Below, piece after piece: positions 2,778 to 7,668 of a DNA stretch of 7,668 bases. The stretch is from the NCBI GenBank assembly GCA_030038035.1, contig JASHPP010000224.1, positions 1-7,668 on the forward strand. The letters are read 5' to 3'. The translations under genes were made by a program, and so were the position numbers. The notes under the pieces were generated by a model. That model saw only the letters and a list, made by a program, of their open reading frames with translations, did not search any database and had not been told where the DNA came from. This DNA is from Trebonia sp. (GTDB lineage: Bacteria; Actinomycetota; Actinomycetes; Streptosporangiales; Streptosporangiaceae). Numbering within the stretch: the stretch's first letter is position 1; every line of letters begins with the position of its first letter.

Positions 2778-4931
2778 GTGAGCGTGGCCGAACTGGCGCA
2801 GCGGGGCGAGGAATTCGAGCGGATGCCGCCGCACGACGTCGCCGCCGAGCAATGCGTTCTCGGGGGAATGCTGCTGTCTAAGGACGCGATCTCGGACGTG
2901 CTCGAGGTCATCAGGCCCGTCGACCACTACAGGCCCGCGCACCAGATCGTGCACGAGGCGATCCTCGACCTGTACGCGCGCGGCGAGCCCGCGGACCCGA
3001 TCACGGTGGCCAACGAGCTCACCAGGCGGGGCGAGCTGGCCCGGATCGGCGGCGCCCCGTACCTGCACACGCTGATCGCGTCCGTGCCGACGGCCGCCAA
3101 CGCCGGCTACTACGCGCGGATCGTCAGGGAGCGGGCGATCCTGCGGCGGCTGGTGGAGGCCGGGACGCGGATCGTGCAACTCGGCTACGCGGGCGACGGG
3201 GACGCCGACGAGCTTGTGGACAGGGCGCAGGCGGAGGTGTTTTCTGTCACCGACCGGCGGATCGCCGAGGACTACCACTCGCTGTCTGAGATCATGCCGG
3301 GCGCGCTGGAGGAGATCGAGGCGATCAGCGCGCACGGCGGGGGGATCACGGGCGTGCCGACCGGGTTCACCGACCTGGACACGCTGACCAACGGCCTGCA
3401 CCCGGGCCAGATGGTCGTGATCGCGGCCCGCCCCGCGGTCGGCAAGGCGCTCGCGCTCGACACCCCGCTGGCCACTCCGGGCGGGTGGACGACGATGGGA
3501 CAGGTGCGGACCGGCGACGCGCTGGTGGGCGCGGACGGCAGGCCGACCCGGGTGATCGCCGTGACCGAGGTCATGCGCGGGCGGCCGTGCTTTCAGGTGG
3601 AGTTCTCCGACGGGGAGGTGATCGTCGCCGACGAAGGCCACCAGTGGCTCACCTGGACGTCGCACGCCGCGGGCTTCGTGCCGCCCCAGGTCGTGACGAC
3701 GGGACAGCTGGCCGCGGCGCTGAGCTGCCCGGCTCCCGGCGGGCGATCCCGGTACGCGATAGCCATGCCGCGACCCCTTGACCTGCCCGCGGCCGACCTG
3801 CCCGTGCCCCCGTACGCGCTTGGCGCCGCGCTCGCCGGCCGGGTCATGGCCGGCCGGGTGCTTGCGGGCGGCGTCGCGGCGGGCGGCGTCGCGGCGGGCG
3901 GGGGGCCCGGGCGCATCCCGCCCAGGTACCTGCGGGCGAGCGCCGCCCAGCGCCGGGAGCTCCTCGCCGGCCTGCTTGGCGTGGACCGGGTGACCGGACC
4001 GGCGCGACTGACGCTGCCGAGCGAGGCGCTCGCGGCCGACGTGCGCGAGCTGATCCACAGCCTCGGCTTCCAGTCCACCACGGCCACCGGATCGCCGGGA
4101 CGCCACGTGGTCCGCTTCACCGACGCGCTGCCCTGGCGGTACGTCGTCGCGGTCAGGCCGGTGGCGTCCGTCCCCGTGCGCTGCGTGCAGGTGGACAGCG
4201 CCGACCACCTGTACCTGGCCGGCCGCGCCATGATCCCGACGCACAACTCCGCGCTGGCCCTCGACTTCGCGCGCTCGGCGAGCATCAGGCACCAGCTGCC
4301 GACGGTGCTGTTCAGCCTGGAGATGGGGCGCAACGAGATCACGATGCGGCTGCTGTCCGCGGAGGCGCGGGTGCCGATGCACGTCATGCGCACCGGCCAG
4401 ATGAGCGACGACGACTGGGCCAGGCTGGCCAGGCGGATGAGCGAGGTCGCGGACGCGCCGCTGTTCATCGACGACTCGCCGAACATGTCGCTGATGGAGA
4501 TCAGGGCCAAATGCCGTCGGCTCAAGCAGCGATACGACCTGAAGCTGGTCATCATCGACTACCTGCAGCTGATGTCTTCGGCCCGGCGGGTGGAGAACCG
4601 GCAGCAGGAGGTGTCGGAGTTCTCCCGGTCGCTGAAGCTGCTCGCCAAGGAACTCGACGTCCCCGTGGTAGCGCTTTCCCAGCTCAACCGCGGTCCTGAG
4701 CAGCGGCAGGACAAGAAGCCCATGCTTTCTGACCTGCGTGAAAGCGGTTCTATCGAACAGGATAGCGACGTGGTGATCCTGTTGCACCGCGAGGACCACT
4801 ACGAGCCTGAGTCAGCGCGGGCGGGCGAGGCGGACCTGATCATCGCCAAGCACAGGAACGGGCCGACCGCGACCGTGACGGTGGCCTTCCAAGGCCACTA
4901 CAGCCGCTTCGTGGACATGGCGCCGTCCTGA
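2778..4931 (+). CDS. dnaB: Replicative DNA helicase DnaB, intein-containing precursor
   Basis: DnaB is the hexameric helicase that unwinds DNA at the fork. The 717-residue precursor contains a 267-residue intein; the spliced helicase would have 450 residues, normal for the family. The N-terminal domain (about residues 16-120) opens with PHDVAAEQCVLGGMLLSKDAI. The RecA-like ATPase domain begins near TGVPTGFTDLDTLTNGL (about 191). Its Walker A loop ARPAVGK ends at Lys223 and resumes with Ser491 after the intein. Walker B is LVIIDYLQLM with Asp594, and SQLNRGPE and RESGSIEQDSDVV follow. The GTG at 2778 (MSVAE) has GGGGGAGG (2761-2768) 9 nt upstream. The second insertion site used by other DnaB inteins, RESG/SIEQ, is uninterrupted, but codons around it are unusual. 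Confidence 0.96.
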   Translation: MSVAELAQRGEEFERMPPHDVAAEQCVLGGMLLSKDAISDVLEVIRPVDHYRPAHQIVHEAILDLYARGEPADPITVANELTRRGELARIGGAPYLHTLIASVPTAANAGYYARIVRERAILRRLVEAGTRIVQLGYAGDGDADELVDRAQAEVFSVTDRRIAEDYHSLSEIMPGALEEIEAISAHGGGITGVPTGFTDLDTLTNGLHPGQMVVIAARPAVGKALALDTPLATPGGWTTMGQVRTGDALVGADGRPTRVIAVTEVMRGRPCFQVEFSDGEVIVADEGHQWLTWTSHAAGFVPPQVVTTGQLAAALSCPAPGGRSRYAIAMPRPLDLPAADLPVPPYALGAALAGRVMAGRVLAGGVAAGGVAAGGGPGRIPPRYLRASAAQRRELLAGLLGVDRVTGPARLTLPSEALAADVRELIHSLGFQSTTATGSPGRHVVRFTDALPWRYVVAVRPVASVPVRCVQVDSADHLYLAGRAMIPTHNSALALDFARSASIRHQLPTVLFSLEMGRNEITMRLLSAEARVPMHVMRTGQMSDDDWARLARRMSEVADAPLFIDDSPNMSLMEIRAKCRRLKQRYDLKLVIIDYLQLMSSARRVENRQQEVSEFSRSLKLLAKELDVPVVALSQLNRGPEQRQDKKPMLSDLRESGSIEQDSDVVILLHREDHYEPESARAGEADLIIAKHRNGPTATVTVAFQGHYSRFVDMAPS
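3447..4247 (+). other. Class 3 intein in the DnaB P-loop, with a degenerate homing endonuclease
   Basis: The intein is a self-splicing segment of 267 residues between Lys223 and Ser491 of the precursor. Block A reads ALALDTPLATPGGWTTMG, so residue 1 is Ala and not Cys or Ser. Block B is VADEGHQWLT with His65 and Trp67, and Asp62 stands where the usual TxxH threonine would be. Block F is VRCVQVDSADHLYLAG with Cys246, and block G is IPTHN followed by Ser+1, with Thr265, His266 and Asn267. Trp at B:12, Cys at F:4 and Thr at G:5 are the class 3 triplet, in which the block F Cys replaces the missing N-terminal nucleophile. The middle part is a worn LAGLIDADG region: LLAGLLGVDR (172-181) and PYALGAALAG (122-131) have lost key residues. 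Endonuclease activity is unlikely. Confidence 0.93.
3831..3905 (+). repeat. Five 15-bp repeats inside the intein (pentapeptide run)
   Basis: Five in-frame 15-nt units encode LAGRV, MAGRV, LAGGV, AAGGV and AAGGG (precursor residues 352-376). The third to fifth units are almost identical in DNA: a 15-nt period starting at 3864 repeats exactly twice and then partly. The run sits where the first LAGLIDADG helix and following domain of a homing endonuclease should be, so slippage expansion seems to have replaced or overwritten that domain. Confidence 0.85.
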
Positions 4932-5125: not shown

Positions 5126-5515
5126 ATGGCTGCGGACCAGCTCAGCCTCGTGTTCGGGGCGCTCGCCGACCCGACCCGGCGGGCGATCCTGGCCCGGCTC
5201 GCCGACGGCGAGGCGACTGTCGCCGAGCTCGCCGCGCCGTTCAGCATGTCCCAGCCCGCGGTCTCTAAGCACCTGAAGGTGCTCGAGCAGGCGGGCCTGA
5301 TCTCGCGGAACCGGCGGGCCACCGCACGGCTCAGCCGCCTGGAGGCCGAGCCGCTCCGCGAGGTGGCCACCTGGCTGGCCCGCTACCAGCGGTTCTGGGA
5401 CGAGAGCCACGAGCGGCTCGATGACCTGCTGGCGGCACTGCAGGCCGGCGGGGAACAAGATCCCTGCCCTGACCCGGCAGCGACACAGAATGGAAGCGAC
5501 GATGAGCAAGACTGA
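5126..5515 (+). CDS. ArsR-family winged-helix transcriptional regulator
   Basis: The 129-residue protein has the ArsR/SmtB winged helix: LVFGALADPTRRAILARLADG (residues 7-27), AELAAPFSMSQPAVSKHLKV as the helix-turn-helix with the recognition helix, then LEQAGLISRNRRATARLSRLE as the wing. No CxC metal motif is present in the DNA-binding helix; the only cysteine is in the C-terminal tail. A metal sensor is therefore unlikely. It belongs to the type that accompanies SRPBCC/AHSA1 proteins. The ATG at 5126 matches the start of homology; the ribosome binding site is weak. The stop overlaps the next gene by 14 nt, so the two are translationally coupled. The dyad at 5092-5123 is its likely operator. 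Confidence 0.9.
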   Translation: MAADQLSLVFGALADPTRRAILARLADGEATVAELAAPFSMSQPAVSKHLKVLEQAGLISRNRRATARLSRLEAEPLREVATWLARYQRFWDESHERLDDLLAALQAGGEQDPCPDPAATQNGSDDEQD

Positions 5516-5855
5516 GATCACCGCCGAACCCGGCATCCCGGTGATCGTCATCAGCCGCGAGTTCGACGCGCCGCGCGACCTGGTGTTCCGCGCTCACACC
5601 GACCCGGACCTGCTCGTGCAGTGGCTCGGCCCGCGCGACCTTTCCACGGCCGTCGACCGGTACGAGGTCCGCAACGGCGGCGCCTGGCGCTACGTGCAAA
5701 CCGATGCCGAGGGCAACGCCTACGGCTTCCACGGCGTCTTCCACGGCGACCCTTCGCCGGACGCGATCGTGCAGACCTTCGAGTTCGAGGGCGCGCCCGG
5801 TCACGTCTGCCTGCAGAGCGCCACCTTCGCCGAGCGAAGCGGCAAGACGCTGTGA
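5502..5855 (+). CDS. SRPBCC (AHSA1-like) domain protein, C-terminally truncated
   Basis: The 117-residue product begins MSKTEITAEPGIPVIVISREFDAPRDLVFRAHTDPDLL in the manner of AHSA1/START-like proteins (quoted in pieces: REFDAPRDLVFRAHTDP, then QWLGPRDL, NGGAWRYV, YGFHGVFHG and QTFEFEG). These ligand-binding helix-grip proteins are usually about 150-160 residues; here the sequence ends at AERSGKTL, so the last strand and the long C-terminal helix are missing. The fold may not be stable, and the gene may be a pseudogene. The ATG at 5502 has GGAAG (5492-5496) 5 nt upstream and overlaps the regulator gene by 14 nt. The frame continues after TGA into a reductase remnant. Confidence 0.75.
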   Translation: MSKTEITAEPGIPVIVISREFDAPRDLVFRAHTDPDLLVQWLGPRDLSTAVDRYEVRNGGAWRYVQTDAEGNAYGFHGVFHGDPSPDAIVQTFEFEGAPGHVCLQSATFAERSGKTL

Positions 5856-6254
5856 CCCAGGCGCCAGATCCCGAGTTCCCCGCAAGCCCCGGCCGACCAG
5901 CGCGCCCTCGCCGGAGCACTCAACAACCTGCGCCCCTTCCTCATCTCCCGCCGGAAGAAACCCGTCCCGTGGCCGAACGCGGAACTGCTCGTTTCCCACG
6001 ACGACGAGCAGCTGTCCGACGCGGTGCGCAAGGAGAAGGCAAAGCCGGGAAAGGACCTCGGTGTCCCCGGCGGCATCCGCACCGCCCAGACCTTCGTCCG
6101 CCTCGGGCTCGTCGACGAATACGTCCTCACCGTGCACCCCGTCGCGCTCGGCAGCGGCAAGCGCGTATTCACTGGCAAGACCGGCGTGGAGCTAATCGAC
6201 GCCAAGACCTACCGGTCAGGAGTGATACGCGCACGCTACCGGCCAGCCCGCTAA
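5856..6254 (+). pseudogene. Remnant of a RibD/dihydrofolate-reductase-like protein (C-terminal half)
   Basis: The frame from 5856 to the TAA at 6252-6254 is open for 132 codons. From about 5904 it encodes ALAGALNNLRPFLISRR, then PVPWPNAELL, PGKDLGVPGGIRTAQTFV, LVDEYVLTVHPVALGSGKRVF and a closing RSGVIRARYRPA. These match the C-terminal half of RibD-C-type reductases that often sit beside ArsR/AHSA1 pairs. The N-terminal half with the beginning of the NADPH fold, about 80-90 residues, is missing. There is no ATG; the first usual start is the GTG at 6024, giving 76 residues without a ribosome binding site. The stretch 5856-5900 reads better in another frame (TQAPDPEFPASP), hinting at a frameshift near the junction. 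Confidence 0.7.
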
Positions 6255-6364: not shown

Positions 6365-7668
6365 ATGGGCGCGCAGGAACCTCTGGTGATGGACCTTGGT
6401 GATCCGGGTGCCGGTCCCGGGACCGCCGGAGGCAAGGGATCATCACTGGCCCGCCTTACCCGCGCCGGGTTCCGTGTCCCGCCTGGCTTCTACGTGACGA
6501 CCAGTGCGTACCTAGACTTCATCGGCCGAGACGGCCTGCGCGAGCAGCTGCTATCCGCTGTCTCGGAGGGGAGCCCGGCCGCACGGATCGGGGATCTGTT
6601 CGCCGACCGTTCCCTCCCGGCCGAGACGGCCGACGCGATTACGAGGGCTTACGCCGCTCTCGGTGCCGAAGTCCCCGTCGCGGTCCGTTCCTCCGCGACC
6701 GTCGAGGACCAGCCGGGCATGTCTGCCGCCGGGCAGCACGACACGTACCTGAACGTGCGCGGTGAGGCGGCCGTACTCGACGCGGTCAAGCGGTGCTGGG
6801 CGTCGCTGTGGTCGGAGCGGGCCATCGCCTACCGGGCCAGCCATGGCATCGACCCGGGTCAGGTAGGTATCGCCGTTGTCGTACAGCGTCTCGTCCCCGC
6901 CGAGGCGGCCGGTGTCCTGTTCACGGCCGATCCGCTCGGCGGCCCTGGCACCAGGAACGCGGTCGCCGGCAGCGCAGGCCCGAGTGACGCCGGCCTCAGC
7001 GACGCGGTGTTCATCAGCGCGAACTGGGGTCTGGGTGAGTCCGTCGTTGCTGGTGATGTCACCCCCGATGTCGCGGTCGTGGACCGGGCCTCCAAAACTC
7101 TCGTCAGCTACCAGACGGGCCGCAAGGAAACGATGACCGTGGCCGACGGTCTAGCGACGCGAGCCGAAGACACCCCGCCCGGATTGCGCGCCAAGAACGT
7201 ACTGACGCCGGACCAGGCGGTGGAGCTCGCCCAGGTCGGCCTGCAGATCGAGAAGCTGTACGGCGAACCGGTGGACGTCGAGTGGGCGCTGGTCGCGGGA
7301 CAGTTCGACATCCTCCAGGCCCGCCCGATCACGACCCCGCCCGCGCCCAGTGGCAGCACGCCCGCCCGCGCTCGCGTCCCCGACGACCAAGAGCAGTGGA
7401 ACGACAGTCTCACCGGCGACTACCTGTGGAGCAACAGCAACCTCGGCGAGGCGTTCCCGGACGTGATGACACCCGCCACGTGGTCGTTCGTCGAACTGCT
7501 CATGTCGCGCATGGTGTTCCCGCCGAGCCTGCCCGGCTACAACGGCTACGGGCGGATCGGCGGCCGTTTCTACGTGAACGTGAGCGTGTCGATGGCGCTT
7601 GAGTCGCTGGTCGGCATCTCACCCCGCCGGTTCATTTCGCTGCTGAGCCCGGTAGTCGGCCGGCTTCC
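6365..7668 (+). CDS. PEP-synthase / rifampin-phosphotransferase-like protein (5' part, runs off the window)
   Basis: 434 complete codons are visible, without a stop. The N-terminal ATP-grasp domain (PPDK_N) is clear: GGKGSSLARLTRAGFRVPPGF (from residue 22), VRSSATVEDQPGMSAAGQHD (from 107), GVLFTADP (183-190), NWGLGE (220-225), EPVDVEWAL, and QARPIT (318-323), which closes the domain. From Trp355, WSNSNLGEAFPDVMTPATWS resembles the linker region of rifampin phosphotransferases and related dikinase-like enzymes rather than classical PpsA. Such enzymes use ATP and a phospho-histidine domain to phosphorylate pyruvate or a small molecule; the histidine domain lies beyond the window. The ATG follows AGGAGG. 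More A/T at third positions than in dnaB agrees with an accessory gene. The substrate cannot be told. Confidence 0.88.
   Translation, partial: MGAQEPLVMDLGDPGAGPGTAGGKGSSLARLTRAGFRVPPGFYVTTSAYLDFIGRDGLREQLLSAVSEGSPAARIGDLFADRSLPAETADAITRAYAALGAEVPVAVRSSATVEDQPGMSAAGQHDTYLNVRGEAAVLDAVKRCWASLWSERAIAYRASHGIDPGQVGIAVVVQRLVPAEAAGVLFTADPLGGPGTRNAVAGSAGPSDAGLSDAVFISANWGLGESVVAGDVTPDVAVVDRASKTLVSYQTGRKETMTVADGLATRAEDTPPGLRAKNVLTPDQAVELAQVGLQIEKLYGEPVDVEWALVAGQFDILQARPITTPPAPSGSTPARARVPDDQEQWNDSLTGDYLWSNSNLGEAFPDVMTPATWSFVELLMSRMVFPPSLPGYNGYGRIGGRFYVNVSVSMALESLVGISPRRFISLLSPVVGRL

Follow-up and report, generated by a model that had tools for sequence, protein, structure and literature searches.

How can a replicative helicase complete its ATP-binding loop when that loop is split by an intein that begins with alanine, and why would such an intein keep the remains of an apparently dead endonuclease? 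These questions are raised by the dnaB gene of a 7,668-nucleotide stretch of Trebonia sp. DNA (contig JASHPP010000224.1 of assembly GCA_030038035.1; hereafter the window), where a single open frame on the forward strand (2778-4931; 717 amino acids (aa), GTG start, stop codon at 4929-4931) spans N-extein, intein, and C-extein. Judging from sequence comparison and a structure model, we are highly confident that this P-loop intein of an actinobacterial DnaB is splicing-competent and uses class 3 splicing; that confidence does not extend to the endonuclease remnant or to a role as a switch. Its endonuclease is shortened, and by its motifs appears dead.

The first-pass annotation of this DNA had described an intein starting with Ala between GK and S of the P-loop, and its limits proved exact to the codon. 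The intein (267 aa; 3447-4247, forward strand, as are all features below unless noted) is preceded by AAG, the codon of Lys223 and of the Lys of Walker A GK, and is followed by TCC (Ser); this GK^S position is called DnaB site b in PMC6195587. The assignment draws on codon reading, a phmmer comparison with the Protein Data Bank (PDB), relatives, and the structure model. Its first residue is indeed Ala, with no Cys, Ser, or Thr nucleophile at position 1, and the annotated triplet Trp67 (block B; codon 3645-3647), Cys246 (block F; 4182-4184), and Thr265 (block G), abbreviated WCT, stands where it had been placed. Further class residues are Asp62-x-x-His65 (3630-3641, with Asp62 at 3630-3632 and His65 at 3639-3641), Cys48, the penultimate His266 and terminal Asn267 (with Thr265 at 4239-4247), and the +1 Ser; block B thus reads DxxH, not TxxH. 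Two splicing halves, delimited by alignment to the PDB entries 6rix and 6bs8, hold blocks A and B (residues 1-72; 3447-3662; the boundary at 72 is our choice) and blocks F and G (residues 228-267; 4128-4247), and the intein is predicted to have the HINT fold. In the alignment, Trp67 and Cys246 pair with the same residues of 6rix and 6bs8.

The comparison with known structures supports the same assignment. Among PDB chains, the intein matched 6rix (6.7e-40), 6riy (4.3e-39), and 6bs8 (1.6e-37), all mycobacterial class 3 DnaB inteins, over residues 1-73 and 228-267; seven distinct sequences were found at E ≤ 1, the fourth being a gp41-1 intein variant (0.02) and two others being unrelated (0.38). 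Pfam and NCBIfam gave no useful intein match for the 267-aa intein taken by itself (TIGR01443, intein C-terminal region, reached 0.23, below cut-off); it was the PDB comparison that decided the identification. A protein search scored 7991 candidates and yielded 4814 relatives, the best 120 of which were used for residue counts; 116 could be parsed (P0063, P0064, P0095, and P0113 were left out), with the window standing in for its near-copy P0001 (three member sequences; 4 of 717 DnaB residues differ). Ala1, Asp62, His65, Trp67, Cys246, Thr265, His266, and Asn267 occur in all 116. In a splicing-domain tree (112 columns, 194 rows, 110 of 191 inner branches open), the window falls among the actinobacterial DnaB inteins, with 6bs8 and 6rix inside the same, poorly resolved radiation, and within a 28-row group (support 100), the one grouping that we rely on, whose rows all come from its own clade, defined here as 62 rows (the window plus P0002-P0062). 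That the insert is instead of class 1 or class 2 type with another first step is hardly credible: Ala1, the WCT triplet, and DxxH in place of TxxH argue against it, class 3 DnaB inteins are the best matches in both sequence and fold, and the tree, poorly resolved as it is, groups the window with inteins that include 6bs8 and 6rix. Every sequence feature tested bears out class 3, and the structure model agrees with the crystal structures of that class.

The class 3 pathway follows from these residues, and by what is known of the family its steps can be proposed. Cys246 would attack the peptide bond between Lys(-1) and Ala1, aided by His65, Asp62, and Thr265; the N-extein would then be transferred to the +1 Ser; Asn267 would cyclise with the help of His266; and an O-N shift would link GK with S, completing the Walker A loop. 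It is reasonable to expect that the ATPase cannot form before splicing. By analogy with mycobacterial relatives, for which there is experimental support, splicing as a switch on replication, as the first-pass annotation suggested, is plausible.

What remains of a LAGLIDADG endonuclease, now eroded, fills intein residues 73-227. Remnant 1 (residues 73-132; 3663-3842) ends in a pseudo-LAGLIDADG block C, LGAALAGR (3819-3842), from which the catalytic Asp is gone, Gly131 standing instead. A Gly/Ala-rich, fast-evolving linker follows (residues 133-155; 3843-3911) and adjoins the place where most residues of the 419-aa relatives are missing; remnant 2 (residues 156-227; 3912-4127) contains a pseudo-LAGLIDADG block E, LLAGLLGVDR (3960-3989). 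Both remnants were delimited from the alignment of relatives, clade rows, and the ratio of nonsynonymous to synonymous substitution rates (dN/dS), remnant 2 also from the structure model, and the linker from the alignment, mean pairwise difference, and a low predicted local distance difference test score (pLDDT). The first catalytic Asp (block C) is found in 0/62 clade rows, where the position is Gly in 60, Arg in one, and Gln in one. The residue after the second Asp of block E is Arg in 62/62 rows, replacing Gly; the former active-site motifs now end in Arg132 and Arg181, both invariant across the clade.

Most full-length relatives (~419 aa) have LGDG and LDTDG motifs with Cys-rich stretches between them, and the window intein is about 150 residues shorter. 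No Pfam LAGLIDADG family matched it at E ≤ 1; among the relatives, PF14528 is given for P0086 and some others. A further 20 rows (P0065-P0085 minus P0084) make up a second, less uniform group in which the motifs disappeared in different ways. In our reading, the ancestor of the window intein was mobile and carried a LAGLIDADG endonuclease, which has since been shortened and, to judge by its motifs, has died. Mobility has probably been lost, since the first catalytic Asp is missing from every clade row.

How, then, does it persist? In the order of G001, 118 of 345 genomes match the intein (E ≤ 1e-30); in the family of G337, 59 of 100 do so (E ≤ 1e-10, a threshold at which the weaker hits may include inteins at other sites). 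A scan of the genome collection found a relative encoded in at least 580 of 595 candidate stretches; 80 loci were kept, a set that excludes the two closest genomes (G337 and G339), and some close relatives carry the names Trebonia sp. and Streptosporangiaceae. A survey for empty sites took 30 genomes from the 41 with no intein match; 29 gave a C-extein match, and 29 of the 30 loci read from them (G062 gave two) have an uninterrupted GKS. The locus L181 (G208) has a different insert, starting with Cys (GKCIWAQT), at the same site, and two intein lineages may therefore use the DnaB P-loop. The tree set built afterwards excludes L181 as well as L177, whose DnaB is more divergent (61% C-extein identity). 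In the resulting extein tree (95 rows, quick search, intein status taken from motif patterns and length), the window lies in a 54-row group (SH-like approximate likelihood ratio test support 99; its exact place inside is open) that contains decayed or short inteins, one uninterrupted allele, and one full-motif intein (P0102). Extein and intein distances are correlated (r 0.61 over 76 rows; r 0.39 over 56 clade rows), and no value in 2000 permutations was as high. The pattern is consistent with an intein that lost its mobility and has since been passed on with dnaB, exchanged now and then; the window intein probably persists in that way rather than by homing.

Very short class 3 inteins also occupy this DnaB site in related genomes (L126 and L132, 175 aa; L143, 152 aa), and the lengths at the site form a series running from 419 aa to about 150 aa. 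Outside DnaB, L142 (G031) is a 360-aa class 3 member of the family in another P-loop protein (FAKKGSGK / TVLLNCIT flanks). G001 has seven matches to the window intein (E ≤ 1e-10) over four contigs, which makes several class 3 inteins per genome possible. Viral contigs gave 23 loci with this kind of intein (27-54% identity), preceded by sequence unlike DnaB; none resembles the window intein closely enough to have been its recent source.

To our reading, the remnant is apparently constrained. Mean pairwise difference over the 62 rows amounts to 0.20 and 0.26 in the two remnants; the linker reaches 0.70, and the splicing halves lie at 0.11-0.16. For the closest two pairs, remnant dN/dS is 0.10 and 0.20. 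The structure model shows the remnant as an ordered, folded domain, and pLDDT is low at model residues 142-156, which correspond to intein residues 137-151 within the linker. C-extein ratios (G339 0.39, G002 0.26, G335 0.22, G336 0.26) were not used, as they are probably too high owing to misalignment or a second intein. We put about even odds on the remnant being retained as it still folds against the splicing domain.

Several observations count against parts of this picture. The selection claim is carried by only two close DNA pairs, each spanning half of the intein, and four more distant pairs give higher remnant dN/dS (G002 0.58 and 0.28; G335 0.49 and 0.46; G336 0.42 and 0.42; G334 0.25 and 0.26), with intervals that exceed 1 in 3 of 8 values. 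Nor is the linker a clean neutral control: against G339 it offers 14 codons with saturated synonymous divergence and a dN/dS of 0.20 (0.09-0.87), and it gives 0.49 against G002 and 0.44 against G334, both with wide intervals. As to the motifs, block E read ungapped formally retains Asp180 in 7/62 clade rows including the window; MAFFT opens a gap at block E that makes the pairing of Asp180 ambiguous. A near relative (L153 of G049, with 93% identity in the C-extein) carries no intein at the site, a state that, by the extein tree, may be either a loss or the original one. Finally, after a limited search by name, we know of no splicing measurement for any member of the window's clade.

What keeps the remnant may be weighed against these data. 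It could now be a required partner of the splicing domain, in a form of mutualism. The low ratios of the closest pairs, pairwise differences far nearer those of the splicing halves than that of the linker, and the ordered model all speak for this, as does the Methanococcus jannaschii TFIIB intein, whose splicing domain needs its degenerate endonuclease according to PMC6801210. The distant pairs, with their 0.25-0.58, do not sit well with it, and the same-site inteins L126, L132, and L143 do without most of the remnant, while Mycobacterium smegmatis DnaBi1 (139 aa) is described in PMC6195587 as splicing without any endonuclease. Since forms of 139-175 aa exist, the remnant is dispensable for class 3 splicing in general. 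The observed constraint leans toward a splicing domain that needs its endonuclease, yet we regard a strict requirement as a tentative proposal, with the probabilities against it.

Somewhat better placed, at a little under an even chance, is the explanation in which splicing is class 3 but the intein is a selfish passenger with no role as a switch, precise deletion from the P-loop being very rare and the remnant needing only to stay soluble. Inteins with dead endonucleases are expected to linger, as only precise deletion works (PMC3229294), and the patchy spread across one family, the empty site of one close relative, and the faster evolution of the remnant in the four distant pairs than in the closest two are all in keeping with a passenger. 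Solubility gives no obvious reason, however, for Arg132 and Arg181 in 62/62 rows. The most ambitious proposal, that the dead endonuclease now serves class 3 splicing as its dedicated partner or as a regulator, letting the cell time the gain of helicase ATPase, we consider unlikely.

The second feature of interest is Cys48 (codon 3588-3590), which corresponds to the Cys48 that acts as redox partner in M. smegmatis DnaBi1 (function described in PMC6195587). In that intein, H2O2 led to a Cys48-Cys118 disulfide and all seven Cys48 replacements abolished splicing, and the same 2018 paper calls the residue "non-conserved" (PMC6195587); the M. leprae intein likewise has Cys48 (PMC8557812). Among our parsed protein relatives, Cys48 is present in 115/116 (Ser in P0096), and among the kept genome loci in 79/80 (Thr in L064). 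One of the two genome-scan patterns contained Cys48, hence a separate count was made of the 69 loci not matching it, with Cys48 in 68. Whole-genome searches added 49 loci, all with Cys48, of which 38 differ from all 80 over residues 1-72; pooled, Cys48 occurs in 117/118 distinct sequences, one of the 49 loci (L142) sitting in another host protein. Viral class 3 loci aligned to the window have Cys at this position in 16/23 (12/17 distinct), with Val in four, Ile in one, and a gap in two.

These counts make Cys48 characteristic of the family, though not without exceptions. Those with Ser or Thr argue against a strict need for Cys48 everywhere, because the same changes stopped splicing in M. smegmatis. 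Cys48 may be kept for redox control or for structure, and its conservation fits either. The window intein has both Cys48 and the block F Cys246, and by analogy these would form the pair that halts M. smegmatis splicing under oxidation. We saw no statement of wide Cys48 conservation in titles and abstracts on intein Cys48, nor in passages of PMC7360933 and PMC8557812.

DnaB matches Pfam DnaB_C (4.8e-101) and the DnaB N-terminal domain (2.2e-33), and the whole protein scores 531.5 bits against NCBIfam DnaB TIGR00665 (cut-off 385.25). By sequence reading, the N-extein (residues 1-223; 2778-3446) ends in ARPAVGK of the Walker A loop, and the C-extein (4248-4928, also by Pfam) starts with the +1 Ser that completes the loop; with the 267 intein codons removed, a 450-aa DnaB with an ordinary Walker A GKS remains. 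No second intein was found in the C-extein, where LRESGSIEQD is uninterrupted. The sequence ALALD occurs at the intein start (3447-3461) and again at C-extein positions +2 to +6 (4251-4265), but a copied target site was rejected, as several viral class 3 inteins begin ALALDTP beside unrelated C-exteins, and the resemblance is probably a coincidence. Upstream lie rpsF, ssb, rpsR, and rplI, and the order rpsF-ssb-rpsR-rplI-dnaB is frequent in actinobacterial chromosomes. Between rplI and dnaB, a 67-aa frame on the reverse strand (2105-2308) had no Pfam match at E ≤ 0.001. Downstream, an AHSA1-family frame (5421-5855) is limited to profile positions 1-90 of 125, and nearby a RibD_C piece (6024-6254) matches just the last third of its profile; the stretch between them appears truncated or rearranged. 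A protein with a PPDK_N domain (7.4e-86), a domain of phosphoenolpyruvate synthases and rifampicin phosphotransferases, begins at 6365 (6365-7666) and continues beyond the window end. No Rfam match was found in the whole window.

Mycobacterial members of this intein family have already been solved and studied, and the window intein joins them; what it adds is comparative: a dead remnant that looks constrained, and broad conservation of Cys48. As Cys48 is near-universal at the DnaB site in the sampled actinobacteria, redox control, or a structural need for Cys48, may be general. A clade with a dead, apparently constrained remnant also offers a direct test of whether such remnants await loss or serve a use.

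Among the closest known systems is M. smegmatis DnaBi1 (6bs8). It sits at the same Walker A position, with Cys48, Asp62, His65, Trp67, Cys118, and Thr137 (PMC6195587), and shares with the window intein the host protein, P-loop site, Ala1, Cys48, Asp62, His65, Trp67, block F Cys, THN ending, and +1 Ser; the splicing halves are 66% identical. Unlike the window intein, it has 139 aa, a short linker, and no endonuclease domain, and its DnaB holds a second intein, DnaBi2, whereas the window DnaB does not. Splicing and redox control are experimental there and predicted from sequence here. The M. chimaera DnaB1 intein (6rix, 6riy), with His65, Trp67, Cys124, and Thr143 (PMC7664689), has 145 aa and is likewise too small for an endonuclease domain. 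The 419-aa class 3 DnaB inteins (P0086, P0092, P0102, L122) share the site, splicing domain, and a homologous middle region, but retain LGDG (LGDG/TGDG) and LDTDG, ~150 extra residues, and Cys-rich stretches, and are likely still mobile. The homing cycle predicts lingering dead endonucleases (PMC3229294), and the M. jannaschii TFIIB intein, like the window intein, carries a degenerate endonuclease inside an intein that works in TFIIB and is predicted to be splicing-competent in the window; it differs in being archaeal and in another protein, and its dependence on the endonuclease is experimental, whereas for the window such dependence would be by comparison.
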